This document shows, piece after piece, positions 12,501 to 63,476 of a stretch of DNA of 64,000 nt. Below the pieces are notes generated by a model, which worked only from the letters and a program-made list of their open reading frames with translations, was not told the origin of the DNA and did no database searches. Origin of the DNA: Ostrinia nubilalis (Eukaryota > Arthropoda > Insecta > Lepidoptera > Crambidae); assembly GCF_963855985.1 (NCBI RefSeq), contig NC_087092.1, forward strand, positions 124,001 through 188,000, given 5' to 3'. Both the position numbers and the translations under genes were made by a program. Position 1 is the first letter of the stretch. The number at the start of each line of letters is the position of its first letter.

Positions 12501-14221
12501 TAGTGGAATTCCTGCGGCGGGCGGGGGTTCGGAGAAAGCGCCGATTTCTCGCGGCCCTGAGCAGCCAGCTGCGGGGAAAGTGGGCCAGAGCCGCCAGGTG
12601 GTAGCACTTAGGGATGCCAAAATCAATCTAGTAAGGGAAACTTCTCAATTGAAGTGATGTAATGATTATGACTTTGATTTATAAACATACGCTGCTGTTT
12701 AAGATTTTGTGCAAATTAAATCTAGCACTGAGAGACAAGAAGATATGACTAATTAATAAATTACTTGGGTCATACAGATGCTTGACTCTATCAATAGTGA
12801 GTGAGGTGAGTTTTATAAGTAATGAATTACATGAAATTACAAACTGAAAGTAAAAAATACACTGACTAGAATATACTGGATTTGTTAATTTAATCTTGTC
12901 TCTCATTTTGCAAAGAAAGTGTAATGCTTGTGCTTGGCGTATAAAGCGTTAATTATAAAATATTGTCCTGGTGTAAAGCCTTAATGGTTCCTGGTTCGCC
13001 GACAGCTGGGCCCGGACTGCCCGCGGCCGCCAGTCCGCGCGCGCCAGCTGTCCGCAGTCTCCGCGCCTCTGTACCAGCATTACTTTGTATATCACCTTTA
13101 TAATCCAGTAGAGCTGTAAATTTATAACTTGAGACAGTTTATTCACTCGAGTATTACGTTGGTTTAGGACGGTTAAGACCCTTTGTACTCGTATATTTGA
13201 ATATTGTTGTCGTAAAGTTTCCAATAAAACTAATATTGTTGTTGCAAAATTCAGAAAATAAACAGTAAAGTAGGTTTATACCTCAAATTACAATATTAAT
13301 GCGTGCGCATGTATGGGTAGTGTAATGTCCTATTTAGTTTCAGAGGCAACCTAAATTAAGTCAATTAAGGTAGGAACTTCATGATTAATTTTGCTTTGAA
13401 CTTGTATATTATTATGGCTTCAGTCCGAAACTTGTTTAGCTGACTGTAGAAAACAGGTTACTATTCGATAATTTCACCTTCCGACTCTGCGTCGGGACTC
13501 TGGAGATAAGGGATATCTAGATCACTGAACTCGAGGGCATTTTCCACGTTAGTAAATCTAATTACAGAAACTAAAGCTATTAATGAGATTCATGCTATAA
13601 TATTTCATAATAATACGGCGCCTTTAGAACCTGTTACTGTTGACAATTCATTACGGGAACAAAATCGGCAATAACAATATTATGTGCCCACCCCTTGCGC
13701 TCCCGTGCGGCAACTGCAATGTGAATCAATTAATAATTCAAGAGCCGGCAGCGGGACACCCAATAAGCGACCCCTAACATCGAGTCGAGGGTCCTAAATC
13801 TTAAATCATGCCTCTCCACTTTATATGCAGATGTTGCATTGTTCCTGCTGAGCGCATTGACCTTAAGCCGGTGCCGTTTTGCACTTTTATTCAACCCTAT
13901 CTTAAATTAGTAATTAAAGTGAATCGGGAGCTTAGATTTTTTAACTTTTTAGTAATTCTCAGTATTATTAGAAGTGTTATACTACGATCCTACGACGTGC
14001 CATAAACTACAGGCATTTAATTGTAACAGTAACAGAGTTGCAGCTTGCAAGTCACGATCTCGTGAGGCAAGTAAGACATTGGAGCAAGTTTACTGTACAT
14101 ACTTGTAATCGATTGATAAGAACCGTTACTTACAATCACATGTGTTCAATAAAATCGATACCGATTATTGTCAAACTGTCTGAGCTCATGCGATGATTGA
14201 TAGTTGATAGTAGTAATTACA
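9567..14221. other. Non-coding stretch with GC-rich islands
   Basis: No gene supported. GC-rich islands lie near 9920-9980, 11575-11645, 12055-12115, 12510-12605 and 12985-13075; the last includes GCGGCCGC at about 13023. An island at 9240-9370, just upstream, also has GCGGCCGC (9287). The 76-aa frame at 12427-12657 lies over an island and has no recognisable domain. Confidence 0.55.
10910..10942. repeat. Perfect 14-bp hairpin
   Basis: AACTGACTGAATCT is followed by a 5-base spacer and its exact reverse complement. There is no U-run after it and no operon context, so I do not call it a terminator. It could be a relic of a small inverted-repeat element. Confidence 0.8.
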
Positions 14222-14246
14222 ACCACAGAATAATAATAAGTACTAC

Positions 14247-14540
14247 CAGGCCTGTTCATCTCCGCGAGTTTACATCGAAAACAAAACACGCACGATTGCC
14301 CCCTACAAGAGTACTATTCGACAAGGCCTCACATACGAGCGAACATTGACTCACGCACGCGTATTCTTGTGTATGATGGAAAATTATGCTCGTGCTTTGT
14401 CCTCGAGATTAGAAATAAGAACTATGTAGTATCACGTACGGTGATGCCAGTTTACGCACTGTTAGTTGAGGATATATTTTTTTTTTTTTTTGTGGGTATC
14501 TCACTTTACATCTTATTTGACATTGGTATCCGTCGTCAGT
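14247..14540 (+). repeat. Left inverted end of the composite element
   Basis: Contains the block opening CAGGCCTGTTCATCTCCGCG, a CTCGAGATTAGAAATAAGAA segment, and a T-run of about 15 bases followed by GTGGGTATCTCACTTTACAT. All three recur reverse-complemented at 19377-19537 and 20333-20466, and one piece recurs again at 19153-19199. The few differences seen are point changes and A/T-run length. Confidence 0.8.
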
Positions 14541-14623
14541 CACGATTCAGTGCTCTGCCAGTTCGCACTTCTTCTACTTAAATACGTACCCAGTGTTAAA
14601 AATAGTGTTTTTGTGTCGTCAAA

Positions 14624-14745
14624 ATGCCGAACGAAAAACGTCAAATGAGGATAAGGAACATTTGCTGAAGAAAATAAATAAATTGGAGCAGAAGATATGG
14701 GGTGCTGAACGTCGTTCAAGCGGTTCAACAGAAGATCATCGTTAC
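14624..14745 (+). pseudogene. Broken ORF1/gag-like start inside the composite element
   Basis: An ATG at about 14624 opens MPNEKRQ, but that frame stops after 14 codons. The neighbouring frame downstream reads EHLLKKINKLEQKI, a heptad-like basic coiled coil resembling the N-terminal part of retroelement ORF1/gag proteins, and it stops at the start of the tandem array. The piece is far too short for any such protein (normally hundreds of residues). Most coding sequence appears to have been lost and the array put in its place. The family assignment is a guess from composition only. Confidence 0.3.
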
Positions 14746-16145
14746 ACATTACCATAATGCGAACAACCATCCCGGGTTGTCTCTTTATGCCAGTTGTGTT
14801 TTTTGTCTGAGGGTTTGCGGTTTAACGTTTGAGTTCTACTCCTACCCCTAATTCAGACAATTGGAAAAATCGCAAGTTCATCGCCTTCAACCAAAAGAAG
14901 AAGAAGAAGAACATCATCATTACACATTACCATAATGCGAACAACCATCCCGGGTTGTCTCTTTATGCCAGTTGTGTTTTTTGTCTGAGGGTTTGCGGTT
15001 TAACGTTTGAGTTCTACTCCTACCCCTAATTCAGACAATTGGGAAAAATCGCAAGTTCATCGCCTTCAACCAAAAGAAGAAGAAGAAGAACATCATCATT
15101 ACACATTACCATAATGCGAACAACCATCCCGGGTTATCTCTTTATGCCAGTTGTGTTTTTTGTCTGAGGGTTTGCGGTTTAACGTTTGAGTTCTACTCCT
15201 ACCCCTAATTCAGACAATTGGAAAAATCGCAAGTTCATCGCCTTCAACCAAAAGAAGAAGAAGATCATCATTACACATACTACCATCCCGGGTTGTCTCC
15301 TTATGCCAGTTGTGTTTTTTGTCTGAGGGTTTGCGGTTTAACGTTTGAGTTCTACTCCTACCTCTAATTCAGACAATTAGAAAAAACGCAAGTTCATCGC
15401 CTTCAACCAAACGAAGAAGAAGACAGATGCAGTAAGTTCTATCCATTATTACACATACTACCATGGTGCGGGCAACCATACCGGGTTGTCTTCTTATGCC
15501 AGTTGTGTTTTTTGTCTGAGGGTTTGCGGTTTAACGTTCGAGTTCTACTCCTACCTCTAATTCAGACGAATACAGTAAATTATTTTTATTATAATATTAT
15601 CATTACACATACTACCATATTGCGGGCAACCATACCAGGTTGTCACGTTATGCTAGTTGTGGTTTTTGTCTGATGATTTGCGTTTTAACGTTTGAGTTAT
15701 TACCTACCTCTAATTCAGACGAATACAGTAAATCATATTTACTTAATACAATATTATCATTACACATACTACCATATTGCGGGCAACCGTACACGGGTTG
15801 TCACGTTATTTAATTTGTGTGGTTATTTTTGTCTGACAGTTTGCGATATTAATATATACTTGCCTCCAAATCAGACGTTCGTAATGTAATGATTTATCTA
15901 TATCTAAGGGTTTGCGGCACTAAAAACTTTGCATTAATAACCTACTTCAAAATCAGATGTTCGAAGTTAATTATTTTTTTAAATAATAATTACCCATACT
16001 ACCATACTGCGGAGCTGTGTGATTTTTATAATATGATGGTTTGCGGTATTATCAACAATACCTACCCTCTAAATCAGACGCAGAATCCTAAAAATATTAC
16101 GATACTTACGGTATTGCGGGCAACTACAACGGGTTGTAATTTTAC
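14744..16145 (+). repeat. Tandem array of ~155-180 bp units, about nine copies
   Basis: Unit starts marked by ACACATTACC or ACACATACTA fall near 14744, 14922, 15101, 15273, 15451, 15605 and 15762, with degenerate units to about 16145. Each unit holds CAACC-loop-GGGTTGT (a small hairpin), then GTCTGAGGGTTTGCGGTTTA, then CTAATTCAGAC. The first three units are nearly identical. Later ones diverge progressively and shorten. The frames that cross the array are by-products of the repeat and are not genes. Confidence 0.9.
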
Positions 16146-16352
16146 TGACCTACTTAATTCTTCAAGTCAAGTAAGTTCAAGTCTAAGTTTTTCGGTGATA
16201 ACAATTTGGCGATATTTAATTTTAAATTGATATAAACGTTAATATTACTAGGCATGCAGATAATTCGTGTTAAGTTGTTACCTACCCGCTACATATTTTA
16301 GCAGGCAGTCAAAAGGGCTGTTCCATACTTGTAAAAGTACATAAATCACATT

Positions 16353-16376
16353 AAAAAAAAAAAAAAAAAAAAAAAA
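16353..16376 (+). repeat. A-run of about 24 bases
   Basis: An uninterrupted poly-A tract lying about 200 bases past the tandem array. It could be the tail of a retroposed sequence on the plus strand, but no poly-A signal or target duplication is evident around it. Confidence 0.8.
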
Positions 16377-16479
16377 TGAAATAATGCATACCTACTTGTT
16401 TAAAAATTGGGAGTTGTCTTAATAAGACATAATTTGATGGGTTTATATCCACACTACCGGGCTGTGACCGGGCGGTGAT

Positions 16480-16665
16480 ATGATACACGCCAAATCGTTA
16501 GCAGGTGAAAAACCATTAGTGGCTATCGAAACATTGGACTCAGAACCCTTAGCCTCGAACCCTGCCGCCGCCGACGCTGCTGCTCTCGTTGACATCTGCG
16601 CCGCTTCCGCTGCTGCTGAAACTAGAAATCAATTAGATTCGACACCTGCAACGCTGTTGGTCTGA
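16480..16665 (+). other. GC-rich open frame of 61 codons, unrecognised
   Basis: An ATG-initiated frame inside the composite element with an Ala-rich middle (PAAADAAALV, then CAASAAAE). Base composition is clearly richer in GC than its surroundings. No domain, signal peptide or convincing splice site is visible. It could be a fragment of element-encoded protein or chance openness in a GCC/GCT-repeat tract. I would not call it a gene. Confidence 0.2.
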
Positions 16666-19150
16666 AACAGCTGCGCCCCTTCATGATGAGATTGTAATAT
16701 TGGTGATGATCCTGTGTAGGACAAGCCTCAACACAATTACCTTAATATGAATTTCTTATCGATGCCAATCGCATTTTTTCGACTGTCTACTAAGAATTCA
16801 TTATCAGAAAAAACGTAATTCTACTTAGACTCATTAAAGATAAGATCAATTATTACCTACTTTGGGGCCAGCTGGCGCTGTGTGAAATTGTTAAAAGACT
16901 TATCTATTTATTTATTTATTACAAACACCGAAGATTGACGCCATGTCTTTTGATAAAAACTTTCCAAAACACTAAAAACTGCCTAGCGAACTTCAAAGTT
17001 TGGGGCTGATCTGGAATTGAATCCCAAAATCAAATCAGCAGCCACCAAAAAGTCCTTTCTTATACGAATTTAACCTTGAAGGGACTTCCCCGAAAGGCAG
17101 ACAACCGATGAAAACAGAGGACTTGACCTCCTGACTTTCAAAACAGTCATCACGTGTCATGCTCGTGAGCGCACCAGCCGCATCCAGCTCAGAACCGCAA
17201 CAGTTGAATCTCGTAAAATATGTCGGTTGGCTTTTAAATTTTTACCATCAGTGGTCACTAGTAATAAGTGACTCTGTTGTACTAGGATAGAGTTATGTGA
17301 TTTCAATTTCACAACCAATAATAAATGTCAGTATAAATCACATAATACATGATTATATTCGGACATAGAAAAATTGCAATTATATCAGGCTATTCATAAA
17401 CTTATATTAAGTGTCATGAAATATAGTACTCCGATGTCTCAACTACGGGATGGGGGGCGGCGTGTTACGGGGAAGCTTCTGGGGACCCATGGTCCAACAT
17501 CTATTTTATTTTATTAATATTATCTAATATTAAAAACATAATATAAGAATTAATCTGCAAAGATTCCAAACATTGACCTTTCTTGGCCTAAAAGTATTTA
17601 CTAAGGATCTTCAAAATTTTCAGTTTCTCAGAATGAAATTCAGTTTTGTACACCGCATAGGTGGCGTGCAGTTTCCCCCCACTTAACACAAATAAAAATA
17701 ATTGTGGCAATGATGCGAAACTAGAAAAATCATTATAATCATCAATACACAATGATGTGTCCTATCTAATGATCTATCTTATCTAGATAATAGCATGGTA
17801 GATACCGAATCTTGAAGAGTCCATTCAATATTAGTATGGACTCGACATTACCAAATTCACCATTTTATCATTTTTACATTTGGAGAACGTGGCATCGTTA
17901 ATTTTGCTAAATTCGTTATCTTTATATACCCTAAATTAGATAGGTACCCTGATGCATACGCAATTAAAATTTTAAGACAACAAGGTCAAGCTTATTTCTG
18001 CGGTTTCCTTCCTTTTTTGTATTACACATACATTGCGAAAAATCACATGACGTGATCAAGCGACGGGTATACTGGCAGTACCCTTATAATGTAGTCTAGC
18101 TTTGTTTCTTTAATTGGATAAAAATAAAAACGCTACATGTGTCTAAATGTCTCATATAAAACGAAGATTACATCTTCATCTATCTATGGATATTATATCT
18201 TCATCATTGTCTGATGATCAAGCAGTACAATAATTGTTCAAGGAAATTGTTTTACTTTTACCATAACTATCATTCATTGAGGTATTAGATTCCACTATTT
18301 TAATAAAAATTGTGAATTTCGATAGCTGTAATAAGCTTGTCTTTTAATTTGGCTGTCATATTGGAAACATAATCAGATATTATGGTTTCCGAAAAATTTA
18401 AAATATTGAGAAATTAGCCATTTTACTGTCATTAGTTAGTGTAATTATTACACACATTGTTCAAACCTTCCTTATAAGCATTCAAATGTTATGCATACAA
18501 ATATTCAATTTAATCACGACATCGCGCCCAAGTTCACAACAATCAATCTTGGTATTGTTTTGACAATTTATGTCATGTACAAGCATTTTGTGCAAAGTGT
18601 TGCTTACGAAATTGTTTACCGCTCTAACACCGAGCACTTAGTTTAGTCACAAGTTTAGTTCAATTAACATTGCAGGCTTGTGATATTGACACCTTGATAT
18701 TCACCACTCACAGCACGAGGCATGCTGCCTCGTCTAGAGCACATACATTAGGAATTAATCTTGATTATCAGAATTACCCCCGGTTGGAGCGTTATTTCAA
18801 ATAGCTACTTTGGGCAAATTCTTTAATAGAATGCCTATTGCGTCCAGAAATAACAATCAACATTTAATTGCCAGAAAAACCTAATACTGACAATTGATTT
18901 GGGAAACAATAATTAACTTTCCCACTTAAATTATGGCTAATATAACAGCTAATTATACTTGCCTTTAATTACTTACCCTTAATAATAATTATCAATTATA
19001 CGAAAGTATTCACTCGGGTAACTACGACAGTTATGTCACACTTAATAGTAATTATAAAACAAGCATTGTATTCTTACTAATGATTTATTATTTTTGCAAA
19101 GTAATAAACAGCTTTGTTTTTATTATCATTTCACATCAGTTCTCTCAAAA
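16666..19150. other. Interior of the composite element, nothing recognised
   Basis: AT-rich DNA with no open frame above 60 codons, no motif of known transposases, reverse transcriptases or recombinases, and no repeat structure that I can see. It may be unrelated unique DNA trapped between the inverted ends. Confidence 0.5.
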
Positions 19151-19198
19151 TCTACATAGTTCTTATTTCTAATCTCGAGGACAAAGCACGAGCATAAT

Positions 19199-19575
19199 TA
19201 ATGATTAAACGAACTTAAAAAGTGAAGTTCTATCATAATTATGCGAGGGCTTTGTCCGAAGAGATTAGAAACCCTCCCACCCGTCTTTAACAATCATAAT
19301 AATTATGTATATTATTAAAAACACAAACCCCCATATTAGTGAAATGATAAAAAATACAAATTACTACTCCAAACTAACTGACGACGGATACCAATGTCAA
19401 ATAAGATGTAAAGTGAGATACCCACAAAAAAAAAAAAAAAATATATCCTCAACTAACAGTGCGTAAACTGGCATCACCGTACGTGATACTACATAGTTCT
19501 TATTTCTAATCTCTTCGGACAAAGCCCTCGCATAATTATGATAGAACTTCACTTTTTAAGTTCGTTTAATCATTA
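19199..19575. repeat. Secondary inverted repeat (~73-bp arms, ~230-bp loop)
   Basis: The arm at 19199-19271 (TAATGATTAAACGAACTTAA, then GTGAAGTTCTATCATAATTA and onward) returns reverse-complemented at 19503-19575. The loop holds part of the right inverted end, including its A-run. It sits directly beside the large palindrome, so the right end of the composite element has at least two nested fold-back layers. Confidence 0.8.
19377..19537 (-). repeat. Right inverted end, inner block
   Basis: Reverse complement of 14381-14540, including the TGTGGGTATCTCACTTTACA segment and the long T-run. It differs from the left end where CTCGAGGACAAAGCACGAGC is replaced by CTCTTCGGACAAAGCCCTCG. The left-end version of that stretch survives in a third copy at 19153-19199. 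Confidence 0.8.
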
Positions 19576-20330
19576 AAAATAAAGAAAATGGTGTACTAAA
19601 TACTGTGCAGTATTTAACTGCCTAAATAATAATAAAAACACAGAATGTACTTTTTTAAGTTGCCTCAAGACACTGAGAGGTAAATAAGTAGTTAATAATT
19701 CATGATAATTCATGCTAAATCATGTATTTCCTCCGCCATTTTCTGCAGATTGGCACCTCACGTCACATCATTTTACCGAAGTCAGCCCTATAGCTTCGGC
19801 GCAGTACCGATCACTGACGTTTGTCAACAAAACTTCTGACAAACTTGCTTGACTCTTGAGACAAGCTAAATTACACCATATTGTTAATGACATTGAGCAT
19901 ACATTTTTTTAAATACCTTCGCGAAGTAAAACTTCTGTACGTAGTACTTATTATTATTCTGTGGTACTACGTACAGAAGTTTTACTTCGCAAAGGTATTT
20001 AAAAAAATGTATGCTCAATGTCATTAACAATATGGTGTAATTTAGCCTGTCTCATGAGTCAAGCACCATTTTGTTGACAAACGTCAGTGATCGGCACTGC
20101 GCCGAAGCTATAGGGCTGACTTCGGTAAAATGATGTGACGTGAGGTGCCAAACTGCGGAAAATGGCGGAGGAAATACATGATTTAGCATGAATAATTATC
20201 ATGAATAATATTAACTACTTATTTACCTCTCAGTGTCTTGAGGCAATTTAAAAAAGTACATTCTGTGTTTTTATTATTATTTAGGCAGTTAAATACTGCA
20301 CAGTATTTAGTACACCATTTTCTTTATTTT
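19576..20330. repeat. Large near-perfect palindrome (~370-bp arms, 16-bp spacer)
   Basis: Left arm 19576-19947 and right arm 19964-20330 are reverse complements with few mismatches and one small indel region (about 19829-19850 against 20064-20075). The spacer region 19941-19965 is the exact reverse complement of 14222-14246 at the left edge of the composite element. Its transcript would be a long hairpin RNA. No open frame runs through it. Confidence 0.9.
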
Positions 20331-20332
20331 CT

Positions 20333-20466
20333 TCCATCATAAACAAGAATACGCGTGCGTGAGTCAATGTTCGCTCGTATGTGAGGCCTTGTCGAATAGT
20401 ATCCTGTAGGTGGGCCATCGTGCGTGTTTTGTTTTCGATGTAAACTCGCGGAGATGAACAGGCCTG
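20333..20466 (-). repeat. Right inverted end, outer block
   Basis: Reverse complement of 14247-14380 over its full 134 bases, with a handful of substitutions. It closes with CAGGCCTG. Sequence outside (TTACAACTTCAATTACTAC) does not continue the match to the left flank, except for a shared TTACAAC. Confidence 0.8.
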
Positions 20467-21058
20467 TTACAACTTCAATTACTACACCGCGAGAAGCGTT
20501 GTAAGTAAATACACGCACGCAATATCTATAGTATTAATACTTTTTAAAGCTACCTAAATAATAATATAAATAAACGCTATTGCTGCTAGTGCTGGAGGTT
20601 TACTGTTAATCAACCATGCTTTACAATCTAATCCAAATGAAAACTAAATTAGAAATGCTGTTTCATGTTTGCTTGGAAATTTCAGCACACATTTATGCAA
20701 AGAAACAAAAAGAGCAGCAGAGCTTTTAAAGAAGGTGTTTTATTAGTCATTAAGCTTTTTATTAGCTTCATTAGCTTTTAACAAAAACTAAAAGTAGTGC
20801 AAATCATAGATAGTAGTGGCATCGTGCGGCCGCGCTGGGGGTGCACACGCGTCCCCGGCACGTCCCCGTCGCGTCCCCGTTGCTTCCCCGTCGCGTCGCC
20901 GCGGTGAGCTCGCGGACAGTGGTGCCTTTCTGTTTTTCTGTTTCACTGTATGTTGCATGCCAATTGTCGTTGGTTAGATGTGTGAAACGAACATTCATTG
21001 TTTATCACTACTTTGTACCACATTTACCGCAATAAAAAAATTCTATTCTATTCTATTC
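20467..21058. other. Non-coding, one GC-rich island
   Basis: No gene supported. A GC-rich island at about 20820-20925 contains GCGGCCGC (20826) and repeated CGTCCCCG/CGTCGC units. The two 64-aa frames on opposite strands across it are artefacts of the island. A short ATTCTATTCTATTC run lies near 21042-21058. Confidence 0.55.
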
Positions 21059-22891: not shown

Positions 22892-23170
22892 CTATATTAA
22901 TACATTGAAGTAATATTGTACGTAGTACATTATAACTCAATGTATTAATAATTTCGTCAAGGGGTACGGTAGACTGGATCGAAACCTTATATGAATAACA
23001 AAGCATAAAAAAATAACGATTTTGAGTCGACAACACATATCCGCAAAATTCGGATAATGGAGAATTTCGTTAAATTCCGATGGCATTGACAAACAAACCG
23101 CTGTCGCCATCTTTAGTAGTTCACCATCCACTCACTATGCGATCAACGCCAAAAGCTGGGTTGTCATCGA

Positions 23171-28135: not shown

Positions 28136-28377
28136 ACTATGAATGGTTTCCTAAAAGAACAATGGGACAAAACGTCCCCAGAACTGTAGCACTTTAATAC
28201 CTACCTTATAATATGATAGTACATGATAATACTATAATTTTATTATAATATGACAGCTCAAGTGTGACATGCATGTCTCAGAAAAAAGTTATATCTAAAA
28301 TAAGAATCCATAAGCAACCCTGAAAAAATACATACAAAATCACTTTTGACCGACTTCAATGGGTATCACGACAGCTT

Positions 28378-28735
28378 GACCCCGGGACAATTCGACTCCT
28401 GTGACAACTCGACCCCTGCGACAACTCAAACCCTGCGACAACTTGATTTTTTTCAACACTCAACACTTTTGACTTACTTCAAATGGTTTCACGACTGCCG
28501 GACCATACGACAGCTGAACCCTACGACCACTCGAACCCTCCGACAACTTGACCCCTGCGACAACTCGATTAAATTACTTTTGACCTACTTCAAACGGTAT
28601 CACGACTGCTTGAGCGTTAAGAAAACTCGACCTGGACACCTCGATCCTTGCGACAAGTCGATCTCTATTACAACTCGACCCCTGTGACAAGTCGAACACT
28701 GCGACACGTCAACCCCTGCGACTACTCTGAGCATT
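28378..28735 (+). repeat. 17-bp minisatellite, GACAACTCGACCCCTGC type
   Basis: Runs of near-17-bp units occur at about 28378-28450, 28500-28570 and 28640-28735, separated by AATTACTTTTGACCTACTTC-type spacers that themselves repeat. Mirror copies occupy about 28845-28970 and 29040-29150 and 29555-29640. Because both orientations are present, single strands can pair at many registers. Confidence 0.8.
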
Positions 28736-28808
28736 TATTCTAGATTCTGTTCAGGCATTGATTGATGGAGCTAAATGGTTTACAATAAGTATCATAGTTG
28801 TCATCGGG

Positions 28809-28843
28809 GTCGAACTGTCGTAGGTTCCCTACGACAGTTCGAC
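28809..28843. repeat. Perfect 16-bp-stem palindrome with 3-base loop
   Basis: GTCGAACTGTCGTAGG, then TTC, then its exact reverse complement. It lies near the symmetry centre of the fold-back element, where a cruciform would start most easily. Confidence 0.9.
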
Positions 28844-29157
28844 AACTGGACCCCTGTGACAACTCGACCCCTGCGATAACAAGATTAAATTAATTTTAAC
28901 CTACTTTAAACGAAGCTCGACCCTACAAAAACTTGACCCGGACAACTCGACCCCTACGACAAGTCCAAAATATTCAACTATGATACTTATTGTAAACCAT
29001 TTAGCTCCATCAATCAATGCCTGAACTGTATCTACAATAAATGCTCAGAGTAGTCGCAGGGGTTGACGTGTCACAGTGTTCGACTTGTCACAGGGTCACA
29101 AGTACAAGTTGTCGGAGGGTTCGAGTGGTCGTAGGGTTAAGCAGTCGTAGGGTCCAG

Positions 29158-29508
29158 CCACTAGCGGCGTAAGGGGGGGGCGGTCCGCCCCGGGTGCCAC
29201 TCATCAGGGGGTGACAAAAGTCACGCAGATTAGTACTCACTGGCGCTAGTATAACGAGGATATGCCATGATTGGGGGGGGGGGGGGGGGGGTGTTGCGAT
29301 TAGTATCATATAGCTCATTCGAACTAACACCTTTCATTCATTCAATCGGTAACCCAAAAGAGGGGGTGCACCAGACCATTTTGGGGTGTCTTACCTCCCC
29401 ACTATATGTATACCCAACTTACTTACATTAAGGACTTATGACGGGGGATGCTGTGCTGTGCTATGCCCCGGGTGCCAACCCATGCTACGCCGCCACTGTC
29501 CAGCAGTC
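29158..29508. mobile_element. hAT-like element inserted in the fold-back right arm
   Basis: The left end CACTAGCGGCGTAAGG and the right end (other strand) CAGTGGCGGCGTAGCATGGG form imperfect inverted repeats, each followed inward by a CCCCGGGTGCCA motif. TCCAGC occurs on both sides, consistent with a short target duplication that is now imperfect. This type of end is common in insect hAT-like elements. No transposase frame is present. Confidence 0.6.
29273..29291 (+). repeat. G-run of about 19 bases
   Basis: An uninterrupted G homopolymer inside the hAT-like insertion, with another G-run near 29168-29177. Long G-runs are rare in such AT-rich DNA, can form quadruplexes and are prone to sequencing and assembly error. 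Confidence 0.85.
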
Positions 29509-29765
29509 TTGAAACCATTATTTTGAAGTAAGTTAAAAGTGTTGAGTGTTGAAAAAAATCAAGTTGTCGCAGGGTTTGAGTTGTAGCAGGGGTCGAGTTG
29601 TCACAGGGGTCGAATTGTCCCGGGGTCAAGCTGTCGTGCCCTTTGAAGTTGGTCAAAAGTGATTTTGTATGTATTTTTTCAGGGTTGCTTATGAATTTTT
29701 ATTTTTGATATAACTTTTCTGAGACATGTCACACTTGAGCTGTCATATAATAAAATTATAGTATT

Positions 29766-31050
29766 CAATTCAATTTATTCATTTAAAGATAACAATGATC
29801 CACATGGTTAGTAAATGGGTGCCTTATACAACTATGTTAGTAATTTACTTATTATAACATACCACTAATTATCCAACCCGTTCGGTAAGAAGTAGCCGAA
29901 GGAAATGTCGGATAATAGGAGAGTCGTACCTCTCCGCCACGGTCTTCAGGATACTGTTGGGGCTCGCCCGTATCCTACTGAGCAACGAGGCAGTCTTCTT
30001 GCATAGGACAGCAAAGAAGCCGTCAGTATGCGACTGAGCAAACATTTCCGAAGCACTGCAGAAGCGAGGCAAGCCCAACAGCACCCTGAAACCGTTGTTA
30101 TATTGGACCCGAAGGACGCCAAGCGATTTCTGCGAGTACGTGGTCCATAGGTTTCCCGTGTATAGACTCTGACAGTATGCTTTAAACAGAGTGATCTTGA
30201 CATGGTCATTACATCGGGCAAACCTGCGAGCCAACATATTACACCTTACTGCCAGCGCCCTTCGTTCCCTCTCGATATCAACATGATCTTTAAGGTCATC
30301 AGTAACGTAGTGTCCGAGATATTTAAATTTAGTGACTCTGTTTAACTTTACCCCATTCAGCAAGAGGTCGGGTACCACGTTTGGACATTTACTGGCGGCC
30401 TTAAATACCATGTATTCGCTCTTCTTCACATTATACAAATAAGCCATGGCATTTAGCATACGCTTCACACACACCCACCATCTTTCTGAGAGCCCCCATT
30501 GTTGGCGCCAGCAGTACCATATCATCAGCGTAGCTTATGTTGTTGATACAAACACCATCTACCCAGCATCCGATACGCATACTGCTAAGGGCAACAATGA
30601 GGTCATTTACGTATAGGTTGAAAAGCCTGGGAGACGTCAGCCCACCCTGTCTCACCCCGCACTGCAACCCATACTCCTCAGAAAAAACGTTAGCCCATCT
30701 TACGCTGTTAATCTGGTTAGCATACTAATAATGGAATATTTGTGATACTTCTGACGGGACGCCCTGCCTCCTCATCTTATCCCAAAGGATGTCATAAGAC
30801 ACAAGATCGAACGCCTTGGAGAGGTCGAGGAAGCATGCGTAAATGGAAGTCCCCTGATCCGTGTAGTACCTGACAGTGTGCTTAAGACTAAGGATGGCGC
30901 TCTCGGTCGACAGTCCAGGCTTAAACCCGAATTGAGCATTATGTGATTTTAAATATTTATCTAGTAGAGAGTCAAGCACACTGTCAAGGACCTTTGCCGT
31001 GATTGTAGCTAGAGAGATCGGTCGGGTATTAGCATGGTCTATCATACAAG
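29766..31050 (-). mobile_element. 5'-truncated LINE (CR1/Jockey-like)
   Basis: Minus-strand non-LTR retrotransposon. Its 3' end is at 29766 with the tail AATAAATTGAATTGAAT after about 100 bases of untranslated sequence. The 5' side stops abruptly at about 31050 inside the reverse transcriptase domain. Comparison with the intact left arm of the surrounding fold-back element shows that about 20 bases of target were lost on insertion, with no target duplication. The clade is suggested by tail type and RT sequence only. Confidence 0.8.
29869..31045 (-). pseudogene. LINE reverse transcriptase, broken
   Basis: The catalytic polymerase of a non-LTR retrotransposon, which copies its RNA at the nicked target. 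Visible in order on the minus strand: NTRPISLATITAKVLD (fingers), FGFKPGLSTESAI, motif A FLDLSKAFDLVSYD, motif B CGVRQGGLTSPRLFNLYVND, motif C SYADDMVLLAP with the Asp pair, then thumb sequence FKYLGHYVTDDL and a C-terminal region ending LLLTERVG-stop at 29869. It is inactivated by a TAG after IFHY (about 30727, a Trp codon expected) and by a one-base shift near 30433 just after CHGLF. The N-terminal endonuclease is absent through 5' truncation. Not expressed as a useful protein. Confidence 0.85.
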
Positions 31051-31102
31051 GTAGGTATTAAAGTGCTACAGTTCTGGGGACGTTTTGTCCCATTGTTCTT
31101 TA

Positions 31103-36033: not shown

Positions 36034-36226
36034 GCTATGAATGAGGGTTTTCGCAATTGAAAAATCCGCGCGATGGCAATACGTAGACGCGAGGTCCAAA
36101 TGCTGCATGATTGGTGGATATCTGTCAATGTCATGACAAAAATAACCAATCATGCAGCATTTGGACCTCACGTCTACGTATTGCCATCTGGCGGATTTTT
36201 CAATCGCGAAAACCCTCATTGGCATA
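36034..36226. mobile_element. MITE with ~76-bp inverted arms
   Basis: The left arm 36040-36115 (AATGAGGGTTTTCGCAATTG, then GATGGCAATACGTAGACG) pairs with 36145-36220 with few mismatches, leaving a 29-base loop. CTATG/CATAG just outside extends the pairing. The loop contains GTCAATGTCATGAC. A transcript would form a long hairpin; the 77-aa minus frame is incidental. Confidence 0.8.
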
Positions 36227-38260
36227 GATTATGAGAGACTGGCAACTATACTAGGTTGATATATGTTTCTCACACTTCAACTGGCATTGGATTCAACATC
36301 GGATTCTGACACTTTTACAGTTATGATACCATGAATATCAGTTTATGGTCCTAATTATTTTTATTTTATTTACGACCTTCGACCAGTTGGACACTTTAGA
36401 TAGCTTCTTGTAATAGTGTCAATATCTTTTTAGCTTTTAACGCAAATCTAGTCTTCAAAGCAGTTTAATCGATTTATTTTATTTTCAAAATCGATATTTT
36501 ATTGTCTATGATGGCCGCAGGAACATCACTATACATGGACTCCCAGCAATAAAGTACGGTAATGCCTCGTACAGATTTTATCGGCAAAAATTATGGAACT
36601 TGATAGGTTTTAGACCATGCCACGCACCAAAACGTCCGGAAGTTGTAATAGTATTATAGAATAAACGTTAAAAGACTTATTTATTTAATTTTTCAATGCT
36701 TAAGTGTCCATTAGAATGAAAGGGTGCTTAATGTATTAAAAAAAATAGAAAATAATTATGATGGGTTAATGTTTTTGGGCGGTTTTTTAGGCGGTTTCTG
36801 ACAATGTCCTTTAAGTATTAAGGGAATGTGAAGAAGTTATTCAAGTTTTTAACTACTCTACTATTACTCACTCGTAATAGACCTAGATGAGTCTATTTAT
36901 ACCGAGGTAACTAGTACTTATTCTGTGATAGTACTCAGTTGTCAGACTTACAGTAATTAGGACTCAGGATAAGAGTACGATTTTTGAATTTAGAATATTT
37001 TATACTATTCATAAAATCATAAAAATAATAATGAATGGTGCAGAATTTATTTGAGGACCAGCGAGCAGAAAGCTGCAATATTTGCGATACAGAATTAAAT
37101 GTTATGCAATGCACCGAGCTTCTCGGTTCATGACAGACTGCGGTTTCGCTTTCACCGAGAAAGGGGCTGGTTATTGCCGCCGCGACTAAGCATTCACTGT
37201 ACATCCGCCTACTCTACAGTCTGAGAGGAATAAAAGCTCTGCAGAACTACTCTACTTATTCCAGAGAGGGTATGACGTTATTGGTTTATTTATTTTGTAA
37301 TTATTTTACTAACCGTTTATTCTTGGTAATTTAGACCAGCCTCTACCTACTCTGAAAATAGGAAATCTACTTAGTCATACGACTTGCAGAAGTTGCAGTG
37401 CAATGCGTGCAATTACTGACATGACACACTCAGTATGTGCAAAGCTCTAACTAGTCTACAACACTCAATTAGTGACGTAGAGACTTTGCAAGTCGCGACT
37501 CAGCCTACTGGTGGCGCCAGCAGTTCAGGTGGCCCCTGCGTGGGCCATCCATCACCGACGCTAATAGCTACGCCTGCGGTGCTATCAACTTCACAGAGCA
37601 AGGACTTCCGTATAATAGAACCTACAAATTGCTCAGATAGACGATAAGAGAACCAATTAAATACGATTCGCAACCCTATTGGCATTCTGTCAATCGTTGG
37701 ATCAAGAAAATATTAATTAAACCTTTTTTAAAGTGTAGACTAGTGGCAGGAAGCTACATCGCTATTGAACAGCCTCCGGTTTGGTTTGGATTCCCTAGGG
37801 GATATAGCTACACTTAGCACGTGTGACCTTAGTAATTATAATTCAATAGCGTCACCAGGGACTTCACGGAGTGGTTTGGGACGGTTTCCATATTTGTTAG
37901 GTTTATGAAAAAAATCCAGTTAAATGTAAGTAGCTACCAATATTGTAGTAATGAATAACTGACATGTGTTTCCTCGAAAGAATATTTTTGTATTACAGTA
38001 ATATGAAATAGCAAATTAAACATAACAGCCGCGTAAACGTATCTGAAAGGATCGGCTTTAGTATCGTGCGCGCCATATGCCGCCGCGAGGAATTCCGGCT
38101 GGAGCCGCCGGGAACCCCGCGCCGCGCATACTGATGGCGGCTCCGGCGACCAGTCCAGGCTAGCTTGATAAGCATCTTTGGGTCTTCATCGACAAACATA
38201 AGGAATTAATTAAAAACGTGCAGAGATTGCAGCTGATCATTTTCAACAGGCAATTATAAT
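36227..38260. other. Non-coding; one weak ATG frame
   Basis: No gene supported. GC-rich islands lie near 37495-37575 and 38060-38160. The ATG frame at 37435-37647 (70 codons, Ser/Thr/Pro/Gly-rich, with GGASSSGGPC) overlaps the first island and shows neither splice sites nor a domain. I consider it chance, though its composition is not absurd for a regulatory protein. Confidence 0.5.
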
Positions 38261-42322: not shown

Positions 42323-43157
42323 TAGTGATGGGCCGACTATGGTCTTTGCCGACTAACCGACTAGCCGACTAATCGGTTTTCAAATTGCCGATTAGTCGGC
42401 CGACTAGTCGGCAATGCCGATCATTCTAATACCTACTTGTCCAAAGAATAATATCTAGATTTCTCAAAGAAATAAGAATATCTAAATTTCTAAAGAGATA
42501 AATATTACTTCTTGAGAAATGAGATTTCTTTAATTATGAGAAAAAATAAAAAGCAACATTACAATCACCTAACAGTACCTAAGGTAGATGTCATAATTCT
42601 CGACGGCGGAGGGGTCAGAGGAGGTGACAATATGATCCCCACCTGCTGGGCTAGGATGCGTGCCTTGATATTATTCTTACTTATCGACGTCAAAATATAT
42701 GGACAAATTGCGCTTATCGCGGCACGCATCCTAGGCCCACTGATTCCTCTCCACTCTCCACGGTGATGGTAAGAAGCTGGAGGCGTGGGGGTTCCCCCCG
42801 CCTACATAGCACGGACTAACACCACCGTCAGATAGGCAGGGCACGCTAATTGCTGGCACAGACTGTGATAGTTGATGGCTTTGTCCGGATTCCCATAGTT
42901 TTTCACACTAAAGCGATCGACGGAGCTCAGGGGTTATTTATGTGGGTATTCCTCATCCTTCCGATGAAAGGAGGCCCTTGTCTACCTCATAATCATCTTG
43001 GTAATTATGAGTTTTATTTCATTCACATATTTAATTTTGTAATGCGCCGATTATAATCGGCAGATTTTGCCGAATAGTCGTCACTAGTCGGCCGACTACA
43101 AATGATGCCGAATAGTCGGCTTTCCCGACTAGTCGGCGACTAGTCGGCCCATCTCTA
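42323..43157. mobile_element. hAT-type MITE, copy 1 (835 bp)
   Basis: Ends TAGTGATGGGCCGACTA and (other strand) TAGAGATGGGCCGACTA, typical of hAT elements, are flanked by the perfect 8-bp duplication ATTATTAG (42315-42322 and 43158-43165). Subterminal regions are packed with GCCGACTAGTCGG-type palindromes, possible transposase binding sites. The two open frames inside (84 and 68 codons) lack any transposase motif. A 84-bp inverted-repeat element is nested at 42651-42734. Confidence 0.92.
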
Positions 43158-43286
43158 ATTATTAGCATAGCGAGCCACAATTACGCTGCACCGAGCCACA
43201 GTCCAAGGCCGCCGTCAGGACATTGCAGTAAGTAAACCTACGCTATAATAACACAATTTAGCCACTTTTATAAGCTCTAGCCAGAA
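43158..43286. other. Short unique spacer between hAT MITE and hairpin
   Basis: About 120 bases with nothing recognised beyond the 8-bp target duplication at its left edge. Confidence 0.6.
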
Positions 43287-43492
43287 CTGTACCTCTAGTA
43301 GGAAAAACTTTCGAGTTCGTTTCGTTGCGTATTCAAAGTGTCATCGAAAAATTTTGTATGAAAAATTAAACAGCGCCCCCTAGGGCGGCTATAATATAGG
43401 GGGCGCTGTTTAATTTTTCATACAAAATTTTTCGATGACACTTTGAATACGCAACGAAACGAACTCGAAAGTTTTTCCTACTAGAGGTACAG
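43287..43492. mobile_element. Perfect inverted repeat, 96-bp arms and 14-base loop
   Basis: Arms 43287-43382 and 43397-43492 are exact reverse complements by eye: CTGTACCTCTAGTAGGAAAA at the outside, CAGCGCCCCCTA at the inside. No target duplication is obvious. Perfect arms imply recent origin, gene conversion or functional constraint. It is most likely a very young MITE, but a transcript would fold into an ideal hairpin-RNA precursor. Confidence 0.9.
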
Positions 43493-44539
43493 GTTGGCAT
43501 AGATGCTCGTTCACATATAAATGTATTTGAATCATTTTATAGAAAAGGTAGGTCTTCGCGACCTCGTGGAGCATACTCTGCCTGTGCGATGACTAAGAAG
43601 TACCTACTGTGTGCACGTGCTTTCAAGGAGGAAGCATGAACGCAATAGCAAATAATTATTTTGAATAACAGATTATTTTGTTTAGCATCTTTAAGGGTAA
43701 ACACGGTTATTGCGTCCGTATTTACACTATTAACACAACATGTAGTAGTTTCATTTGTGTTATTATTATTTTATAAGTTTGAAAGCTACTATAATTTTAA
43801 GTGCCTCGTAACGTGATTTACTGAATTCCTTATGGTTAGGTAGAGTTCAGAAATTCTGTAATACAGGTTAATCTGTTAGGACTTAGGAAACTAATCTTCT
43901 TGGTAAAGTTTAAGTGTAAATCCTCTTAGAATTCGATAAAAGTTACATAATTTTACATCAAATTAATTGAAATATGTTTTAATGTAAAACAGACGGATTA
44001 CTAAGCAATCACCGAGCGAACAATCAATCGCTGTCCCAGCGACAACTTAATGGCACAGACGCGTCAGTACACCACACCATCAGTGGTGTCATTCGCGGGT
44101 GTCGTCGGGTTTGTGATTCATTCGACAGCGGCCTCTGGCGGGGACGCTCGACCCAATACAAAGACATCGTTCATTAATGAGAATCGAGTTCATTTGTCAA
44201 AGATAGGCCTAAATAAATATTTTTACACCTTTAAGCCCAAAAACTCATTTTTTCCAACAGTCTTAACGAACATTTTGGCAATAGGTAGGTAGGACGTAAA
44301 TTTTCCTGAAGAAGTTTACTTATAATTTCAAGTGTCTTACTTATAATTTTACAGTTTATAGTTTTTTTTTAATTAGAGCGTAATAAAAATAATTGAAAAA
44401 ATATCGATATAGGTAATTGATAAAAATGTAAAAACAACAATTAACTGGACGGCGAAGAGGCTATAAATAATATATTAATTGCCGATAAAGTGGAAGAGAT
44501 AGTAATGTATTGGGTGTGCTCTCCTCGCTACACAAGCGC
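43493..44539. other. Non-coding, nothing recognised
   Basis: AT-rich DNA. The 80-codon ATG frame at 44050-44292 has no domain or splice evidence. Confidence 0.5.
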
Positions 44540-46749: not shown

Positions 46750-47584
46750 TAGTGATGGGCCGACTATGGTCTTTGCCGACTAACCGACTAGCCGACTAAT
46801 CGGTTTTCAAATTGCCGATTAGTCGGCCGACTAGTCGGCAATGCCGATCATTCTAATACCTACTTGTCCAAAGAATAATATCTAGATTTCTCAAAGAAAT
46901 AAGAATATCTAAATTTCTAAAGAGATAAATATTACTTCTTGAGAAATGAGATTTCTTTAATTATGAGAAAAAATAAAAAGCAACATTACAATCACCTAAC
47001 AGTACCTAAGGTAGATGTCATAATTCTCGACGGCGGAGGGGTCAGAGGAGGTGACAATATGATCCCCACCTGCTGGGCTAGGATGCGTGCCTTGATATTA
47101 TTCTTACTTATCGACGTCAAAATATATGGACAAATTGCGCTTATCGCGGCACGCATCCTAGGCCCACTGATTCCTCTCCACTCTCCACGGTGATGGTAAG
47201 AAGCTGGAGGCGTGGGGGTTCCCCCCGCCTACATAGCACGGACTAACACCACCGTCAGATAGGCAGGGCACGCTAATTGCTGGCACAGACTGTGATAGTT
47301 GATGGCTTTGTCCGGATTCCCATAGTTTTTCACACTAAGGCGATCGACGGAGCTCAGGGGTTATTTATGTGGGTATTCCTCATCCTTCCGATGAAAGGAG
47401 GCCCTTGTCTACCTCATAATCATCTTGGTAATTATGAGTTTTATTTCATTCACATATTTAATTTTGTAATGCGCCGATTATAATCGGCAGATTTTGCCGA
47501 ATAGTCGTCACTAGTCGGCCGACTACAAATGATGCCGAATAGTCGGCTTTCCCGACTAGTCGGCGACTAGTCGGCCCATCTCTA
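46750..47584. mobile_element. hAT-type MITE, copy 2 (835 bp)
   Basis: Same element as 42323-43157, in the same orientation 4,427 bases downstream. The only difference found by eye is A at 42912 against G at 47339. It has its own perfect 8-bp target duplication, ATAAAAAT (46742-46749 and 47585-47592), so the second copy arose by transposition and not by segmental duplication. The nested small element is present here too (47078-47161). Confidence 0.92.
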
Positions 47585-62025: not shown

Positions 62026-62274
62026 TGGTGATGGGATACTATCGAAAAATACTGAGATACACAAATTGAGATAAACAAACTGTAAAAAATTTATTACAAT
62101 ACTAAAATAAAGTAAAATAATAAGTAGGTATTTACTAATAACAAATAATAATATAAAGCTACCCAATCAACATTTTTATTAAAACAGGAGAACTTTCAGT
62201 TAAGCAGTTAATGACTCGATCGTAAAAGCTGCTGTTTTCGTAATCCTTGATTAGATCCGATTCTGTATTTAATA

Positions 62275-63352
62275 CAGTGTGAGTAACGATAAAGTGCACA
62301 TAATATGAAATTAGGTGAAACTAGATCTATTTTGATCGACAAAAAACAGGTCAAAATTTTTTTGAGTTTTTTTTCTCATTTTTTATAGTTTTTTTTTCTT
62401 CCAATTACTTATTGTAAAGAAAACGTAATAACTTTTAAACTAAGAGGTATGTCCTGTAAAAACAGTAATAATGCTAAATAACAGACGATACTAAAAAAAT
62501 ACATAAAATACTCAGAAAATGCCAACAAATAATAAAAAATGATACTTTTTGAAAAAAATCTGCTTTTAAATTCGTGTTTTTTGGTTATTTGATAAATTTC
62601 TCCAAAAAATGCCCCTATAACAGGTGGTTTTTATTACTTTGTATTATTCTCTATCGTATTACCATTGTAAAACCAAAAATCGCATGTCTCTATCCCTATC
62701 ACAACATTTGCTATGATCGTGTGAACTAAGCCTCTCCGGGCGCGCCATTCAACGCTTCGTTAACAACGAAACTGAAAATGGCTCTAGATTTGTAATTTTG
62801 ATAAAGACAAGTTAGATTTCAAATAAAAACAAAAGATTTCGAAGTAAAATAAGCATTTTAGTTAAAATTAGAATTGTCCCTACCTGTAGCGTAGAATAAT
62901 GTTGTGGTAGGCCTTTGTTCAAACTATCATAGAAAATGTTGTGATAGGGATAGAGACATGCGATTTTTGGATTTACAAAGGTAATACGATAGAGAATAAT
63001 ACAAAGCAATAAAAACCACCTGTTATAGGGGCATTTTTTGGAGAAAACCAAAAAAACACAAATTTATAAGCAGATTTTTTTCAAAAAGTATCATTTTTTA
63101 TTATTTGTTGGCATTTTCTTAGTATTTTTTTAGTATCGTCTGTTATTTAGCATTATTACTGTTTTCATTTTATCAGGATATACCTCTTAGTTTAAAAGTT
63201 ATTACGTTTTCTTTACAATAAGTAATTTTAAGAAGAAAAATTATATAAAAAATTAAATAAAAATCTCAAAAAAAATTTGACCTCTTTTTTGTCGATAAAA
63301 ATAGGTCTAGTTTCACCTAATTTCATATGTACACTTTATCGTGACTCACATT
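62275..63352. repeat. Large inverted repeat (~430-bp arms, ~208-bp spacer)
   Basis: The left arm 62275-62717 (AGTGTGAGTAACGATAAAGT to CTATCACAACATTTGC) pairs with the right arm 62926-63352 with moderate divergence and small indels (e.g. TTGGTTATTTGATAAATTTC against a shortened TTTGGTTTTC). Arms are extremely A/T-rich. The spacer holds a single GC-rich motif, CCGGGCGCGCC. The outer end of the right arm overlaps the last codons of a hAT transposase exon. Confidence 0.85.
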
Positions 63353-63476
63353 GTTTAATTAACGAATCTAACAGTTCTTGCCCCAGTAGAGAACGAAGTC
63401 TCGTTTTAATGCGCTTTAATGCTGAAAATCGTCTCTCACAAGTCACTTGCGTGAATGAAATTGTGAGAATTAAACA
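63336..63476 (-). pseudogene. hAT transposase last exon (dimerisation region)
   Basis: The minus strand after a clean acceptor (TTTTTTTTATGTATTACAG) encodes 46 residues to a TAA at 63336. Key part: FTQVTCERRFSALKRIKTRL, then RSLLGQELLDSLI. This is the C-terminal dimerisation motif (Cys/Ala-Glu-Arg-x-Phe-Ser-x-Leu, then Arg-Leu-Arg-Ser) of hAT transposases of the ZMYM1/TTF-type group. That domain holds the transposase oligomer together. No upstream exon with the catalytic or zinc-finger domains is seen before the window ends, so the copy is incomplete here. A domesticated host exon is the less likely alternative. Confidence 0.75.

Follow-up and report, generated by a model that had tools for sequence, protein, structure and literature searches.

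Within a window of 64,000 nucleotides of the Ostrinia nubilalis genome (the whole stretch of DNA analysed here; GC content 37.6%), a 6.2-kb segment is bracketed by two inverted ends, the right one of which is split, and this arrangement raises the question of what kind of genetic object the segment represents and by which events it was assembled. The inverted-end anatomy at 14247-20466 is real and intricate, and the earlier note on this DNA, which had described two inverted ends with an interrupted right copy, was correct in this respect: 794 nt separate the inner from the outer part of the right end (Table 1). The two copies of module A share 131 matches, with 3 mismatches and 2 gap events in the end alignment. 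Module C retains 136 matches with no mismatch and a single gap in a poly-T tract, and module B, which in the right end lies beside the insert, has 18 matches, 5 mismatches and 1 gap. Eight palindromic bases, CAGGCCTG, open the left end at 14247 and close the right end at 20466, and the outer limits of the exact end match coincide with these two positions; the arms reported by the repeat finder take in 9 further outward bases of weak likeness.

Table 1. Features of the segment and its borders, in positions of the window
Feature	Position	Strand	Description
TTACAAC, left copy	14217-14223	+	best flank repeat; possible 7-bp target duplication
Tip copy	14224-14246	+	reverse of the palindrome centre; ends in GTACTAC (14240-14246), which adjoins the left end
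Left inverted end	14247-14540	+	contiguous modules A (14247-14381), B (14382-14404) and C (14405-14540)
78-aa open stretch	14521-14754	+	no Pfam match
Tandem array	14730 to about 16144	+	178-179-nt units on the left; 154-157-nt, then degenerate units on the right
Middle region	16145-19151	.	no recognisable gene; unrepeated in the window except for a 51-nt match, 16858-16908 / 44984-44935
Chimeric end fragment	19152-19271	-	reverse of 14382-14429 (48/48) joined to reverse of 19503-19576 (74/74)
Right inverted end, inner part	19377-19537	-	C' (19377-19513) and diverged B' (19514-19537)
Right-end interruption, 794 nt	19538-20331	.	38-nt lead-in (19538-19575) and palindrome
Palindrome, 755 nt	19576-20330	.	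arms 19576-19947 and 19964-20330; 16-nt loop 19948-19963
Right inverted end, outer part A'	20332-20466	-	finishes with CAGGCCTG
TTACAAC, right copy	20467-20473	+	abuts the right end

Long terminal inverted repeats, a feature of fold-back type DNA transposons and also of DIRS1-like elements, are present at this locus. We favour, with somewhat better than even confidence, the reading of the segment as one old DNA transposon copy of fold-back type: a non-autonomous cut-and-paste element that carries long inverted repeats at its termini and whose end modules have been rearranged. The earlier note had proposed a fold-back or DIRS/LTR-like element that was repeatedly rearranged; of these readings the rearranged fold-back fits best, the DIRS part fails at the lack of a right internal complementary region (see below), and the LTR part fails at the orientation of the ends. 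Both LTR fragments and an LTR retrotransposon were rejected, since the terminal repeats are inverted and not direct. The direct repeats in the element are the tandem array, a 55-column match between 19152-19205 and 19489-19542, and matches of 30-31 nt that are A- or AT-rich.

The interruption of the right end is for the most part a palindrome, as had been suggested for some 795 bases: 755 of the 794 nt belong to it, with 92.5% identity over 770 columns. Its arms align with 354 matches, 8 mismatches and 4 gap events, and the loop between them is short and asymmetric. Folded as single-stranded DNA, the interruption reaches -409.3 kcal/mol, whereas 20 shuffled versions averaged -72.9. In the pooled modules C, B+ and D no mismatch was found in 258 positions, against 11 in 496 for module A and the palindrome arms (p = 0.020), a contrast pooled post hoc from partly overlapping modules with gaps uncounted, which omits the diverged module B (5/23 mismatched) and in single tests gives p values of 0.11 to 1.0.

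Two details were absent from the earlier note. At the left edge, the 25 bases at 14222-14246 repeat the centre of the palindrome (19941-19965) in reverse without a mismatch (25/25), and a chimeric fragment at 19152-19271 joins pieces of both ends (Table 1). Among 400 random placements used as a control for the tip match, 4 gave at least 18 nt, 2 of these at the 25-nt ceiling; control placements could fall inside other inverted repeats, so a match of this type is rare here and not unique. A GTAGTAC site at 22922, tip-like at first look, belongs to another short palindrome.

These observations bear on one alternative, namely that unrelated repeats (two solo ends, an array and a palindromic repeat) lie together by chance with inverted fragments and never formed a single mobile unit. 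Palindromes and inverted pairs do occur elsewhere in the window (36035-36227, 43276-43503, 28228-29765 and 62259-63368), no connection between the middle 3 kb and the ends was seen, and comparison of its flanks revealed no clean target duplication around the 794-nt insert. The common exact outer boundary of the two ends, the recurrence of the tip 5.7 kb away and the joining of pieces of both ends in 19152-19271 argue instead that the ends, the palindrome and the fragment share a history, and we regard an accidental assembly as unlikely, if still worth weighing.

The flanks of the segment are informative about its integration. hAT, Polinton and Mutator elements were considered on the basis of flank-duplication length, and all three were rejected, as no 8-, 6- or 9-bp duplication abutting both CAGGCCTG ends occurs in the sequence. 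The best flank repeat is TTACAAC, and the chance that a random right-flank 7-mer recurs in the 30 left bases was estimated at 0.31% (200,000 draws). Target duplications resembling TTACAAC had been anticipated, and two copies of this 7-mer are indeed present, but the left one stands 23 bases off the inverted end, with the tip lying between. Directly beside the left end stands the hexamer TACTAC, which is found again 13 bases past the right end, and the 7-mers immediately flanking the two ends (GTACTAC on the left, TTACAAC on the right) disagree at 2 of their 7 positions. Taken post hoc, these facts point to differing histories: the tip may have been added during or after an integration at TTACAAC, or an insertion at GTACTAC within a repeat carrying the tip may have been followed by recombination.

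The second of these histories corresponds to a reading more specific than the favoured one, in which the segment is a Galileo-like chimera within the P superfamily. Of its two halves, one would derive from a copy inserted at GTACTAC in another repeat, the 23 bases being the tip of that repeat, and the other from a copy inserted at TTACAAC, and ectopic recombination would have joined them. The left-abutting GTACTAC fits GTANTAC, the target consensus of Galileo given in the available part of PMC4168063, and the right TTACAAC agrees at 4 of the 6 fixed positions only. GTANTAC is found at 17 sites outside the element (2.9e-4 per position), and the match to the target is post hoc. As far as the consulted sections of the literature describe it, Galileo is likewise long-ended, some of its copies carry tandem repeats (PMC3573991), and its ends extend, recombine and turn chimeric (PMC2775673, PMC3573991, PMC4168063, PMC3688188); 12 of 170 Galileo copies in D. 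mojavensis are reported there as chimeric with non-matching 7-bp flanks (PMC3573991). Unlike Galileo, the present segment has a right 7-mer that misfits GTANTAC, and the peptides scanned from the element yielded neither a transposase nor a THAP domain. In addition, the array is not located within the ends. Overall, a Galileo-like origin appears improbable. Even less probable, to the point of being a speculation, is the extension by which a Galileo-like element targets GTANTAC also at its own hairpin tip, so that self-insertion, the palindrome, the splitting of the end and the chimeras would form one linked cycle.

The internal tandem array, also reported in the earlier note, starts inside the inner border of the left end. 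TRF identified a period of 179 with 3.0 copies and 98% matches at 14730-15264 and a period of 159 with 1.9 copies and 95% matches at 15123-15423, and degenerate copies reach about 16144. The identity of neighbouring units declines from left to right (0.989, 0.994, 0.956, 0.920, 0.881, 0.891 and 0.830), in keeping with the left side of the array being the youngest. The array sits between the ends and has no right-hand partner, and the best match of its unit to the ends was at E 1.2; the unit is not derived from the ends. Each array unit retains two short stretches that are complementary to one another, GTCTGA ... TCAGAC in those that align, and the decay along the array is even.

In these respects the segment can be compared with Tetris, a fold-back element of Drosophila virilis (PMC4079207). 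In the accessible part of its description, Tetris is likewise non-autonomous, modular and rearranged, with long inverted ends, a non-coding middle and tandem repeats of about 220 bp, compared with 154-179 nt for the array units here. Its repeats, however, are located inside both ends, whereas the present array lies between the ends and on the left side only; complete Tetris copies carry 8-9-bp duplications (PMC4079207, in part), whereas no clean duplication abuts both ends here. Tetris, like some copies of Galileo, thus has its tandem repeats within the two ends, an arrangement that is not found at this locus. Its absence lowers the case for fold-back membership and remains compatible with it, the feature being common and not universal in the portions of these accounts that are available.

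Little of the segment appears to be coding. What had been called an ORF1-like remnant exists as a 78-aa open stretch (Table 1), but no Pfam match was obtained for it at E 0.1, and hand-joined possible gag pieces yielded no homologue at E 10 in a collection whose insect coverage is uncertain. The coiled-coil look of this peptide is, we assume, reminiscent of retrotransposon gags. The translated left end and a translated palindrome arm likewise had no homologues in this collection of uncertain insect coverage. Domain searches of the middle region covered 10 of the 23 peptides of at least 40 aa (16145-19150), none of which scored above cut-off; the sole line returned had 12.5 bits against a curated cut-off of 28 bits. 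A non-coding middle domain, which is a feature of fold-back elements, is thus what these 10 of 23 peptides and the 78-aa stretch indicate. No RNA families were found in the window at gathering scores, and no tRNAs by ARAGORN.

The same peptides are relevant to another candidate, a wrecked DIRS1-like tyrosine-recombinase retrotransposon in which the ends would be the inverted terminal repeats (ITRs), the tip the left extension (lE) and the palindrome centre the left internal complementary region (ICR). The inverted ends are of DIRS-like length, and the 14521-14754 peptide has the gag-like look mentioned above. As outlined in the part of PMC3266345 that could be consulted, DIRS1-like elements combine inverted ends with a pair of ICRs whose overlap lies at a 3-bp circle junction. 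Here, the 25 nt at the left edge and their exact complement near the 3' end (14222-14246 / 19965-19941, 25/25) resemble such a left extension and left ICR (cf. PMC3266345, in part), and the complement covers the extension and not the repeat proper. On the right side, 20420-20500 complements only the left end and otherwise shows matches of at most 12 nt (within 14200-20500); there is no right ICR and hence no circle junction in the element. The order of parts also differs, as the ICR-like stretch comes after a portion of the right ITR, and the lE is, in the available part of the same account, reported in fungi and amoebozoa only (PMC3266345). Gag, RT/RH, methyltransferase and tyrosine recombinase were not detected in the 78-aa stretch or in the 10 of 23 middle peptides, with which a deletion derivative would still be compatible. 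DIRS membership was rejected on these grounds, and a DIRS1-like origin is retained as a very unlikely rival.

We return to the rearranged fold-back transposon, for which a plausible course of events can be proposed. A transposase supplied from elsewhere may have recognised the CAGGCCTG ends and mobilised the element. If the right end was then broken, or a gap in it was incompletely repaired, a 3' strand would have been able to fold back and prime synthesis, and fold-back synthesis from a 3' end is expected to leave a palindrome with a short asymmetric loop, here of 16 nt. Similar error-prone synthesis with template switching could account for the loop-region sequence copied to the left edge and for the chimeric fragment 19152-19271. 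Exchange between the ends may have kept some modules identical, in line with the lack of mismatches in modules C, B+ and D compared with the 11 in module A and the palindrome arms, and local tandem duplication at the left side would have enlarged the array. Related processes are known: in the available parts of two studies, Galileo is described as expanding in tandem, drawing inner sequence into its ends, forming chimeric copies, acquiring insertions in one of the ends and switching templates while gaps are repaired (PMC3573991; PMC4168063), and the accessible portion of work on yeast breaks describes short templated inverted duplications formed via fold-back (PMC11724301).

This fold-back reading is supported by the exact outer boundary, the lack of recognised coding in the scanned part, the loop, the tip copy, the uneven identity of the modules, the chimeric fragment and the left-young array; the lack of a second copy in the collections searched, of a transposase and of a clean duplication abutting both ends, together with the one-sided array, speaks against it. 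The segment belongs to a known kind of object, in that it resembles described fold-back transposons, and it is most likely one rearranged, long-ended, non-coding copy.

A second copy, which would bear on the other proposal of the earlier note, a new long-inverted-end family that moves with foreign help, was sought in the rest of the window, in viral and prokaryote contigs and in phages, which are poor places for an insect repeat, and none was found. The 16-mer CAGGCCTGTTCATCTC had 7 exact matches in the viral contigs, which were taken as chance because the best surrounding alignments reached no more than 20 identical nt, or 23 nt with 91% identity; four other patterns from the element had no match in these contigs. 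Of two patterns searched in the prokaryote contigs, one had no match and the other, a 20-mer, matched once in MAG contig L008, again taken as chance, and 14224-14700 had no match in the phages. Self-comparison of the window gave no further copy of the ends, array or palindrome, and a single 51-nt match for the middle region. In a more sensitive search of the window with the element masked, the left end produced a 31-nt match over its poly-T tract (56109-56080, E 3.5e-4). The best matches were otherwise one of 28 nt for the palindrome arm (E 0.022) and one with E 0.11 for the array unit, while nhmmer on the rest of the window gave nothing at E 1. In open-licence literature, nothing was found on Lepidoptera with long inverted or fold-back elements, and the letters of the ends and tip recovered only one 12-mer, in work unrelated by title. 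If other copies exist, the family would illustrate within one element the ways in which inverted ends lengthen, split and exchange sequence, and the way in which a transposon comes to contain a young tandem array. Taken as one worn copy, the segment is mainly a curiosity added to a described class.

Several other repeats were observed in the window. The inverted pair at 28228-29765 (280 columns, 90.7%) has 17-bp tandem repeats on both sides and is fold-back-like, with no flanking duplication longer than 5 bp; the pair at 62259-63368 (479 columns, 86.8%) has no flanking duplication of at least 5 bp near its ends. Palindromic repeats are frequent in this DNA, since 36035-36227 and 43276-43503 are also short near-perfect palindromes (88% and 91%, respectively). 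On the minus strand, two open stretches in 30434-31057 match RVT_1 above the curated cut-off and mark a broken retroelement. Finally, 42323-43157 and 46750-47584 represent one element present twice, with 99.9% identity over 837 columns and separate 8-bp flanking duplications (ATTATTAG and ATAAAAAT). We take this element to be hAT-like from its ends and the length of its duplications, and its two copies suggest recent activity.
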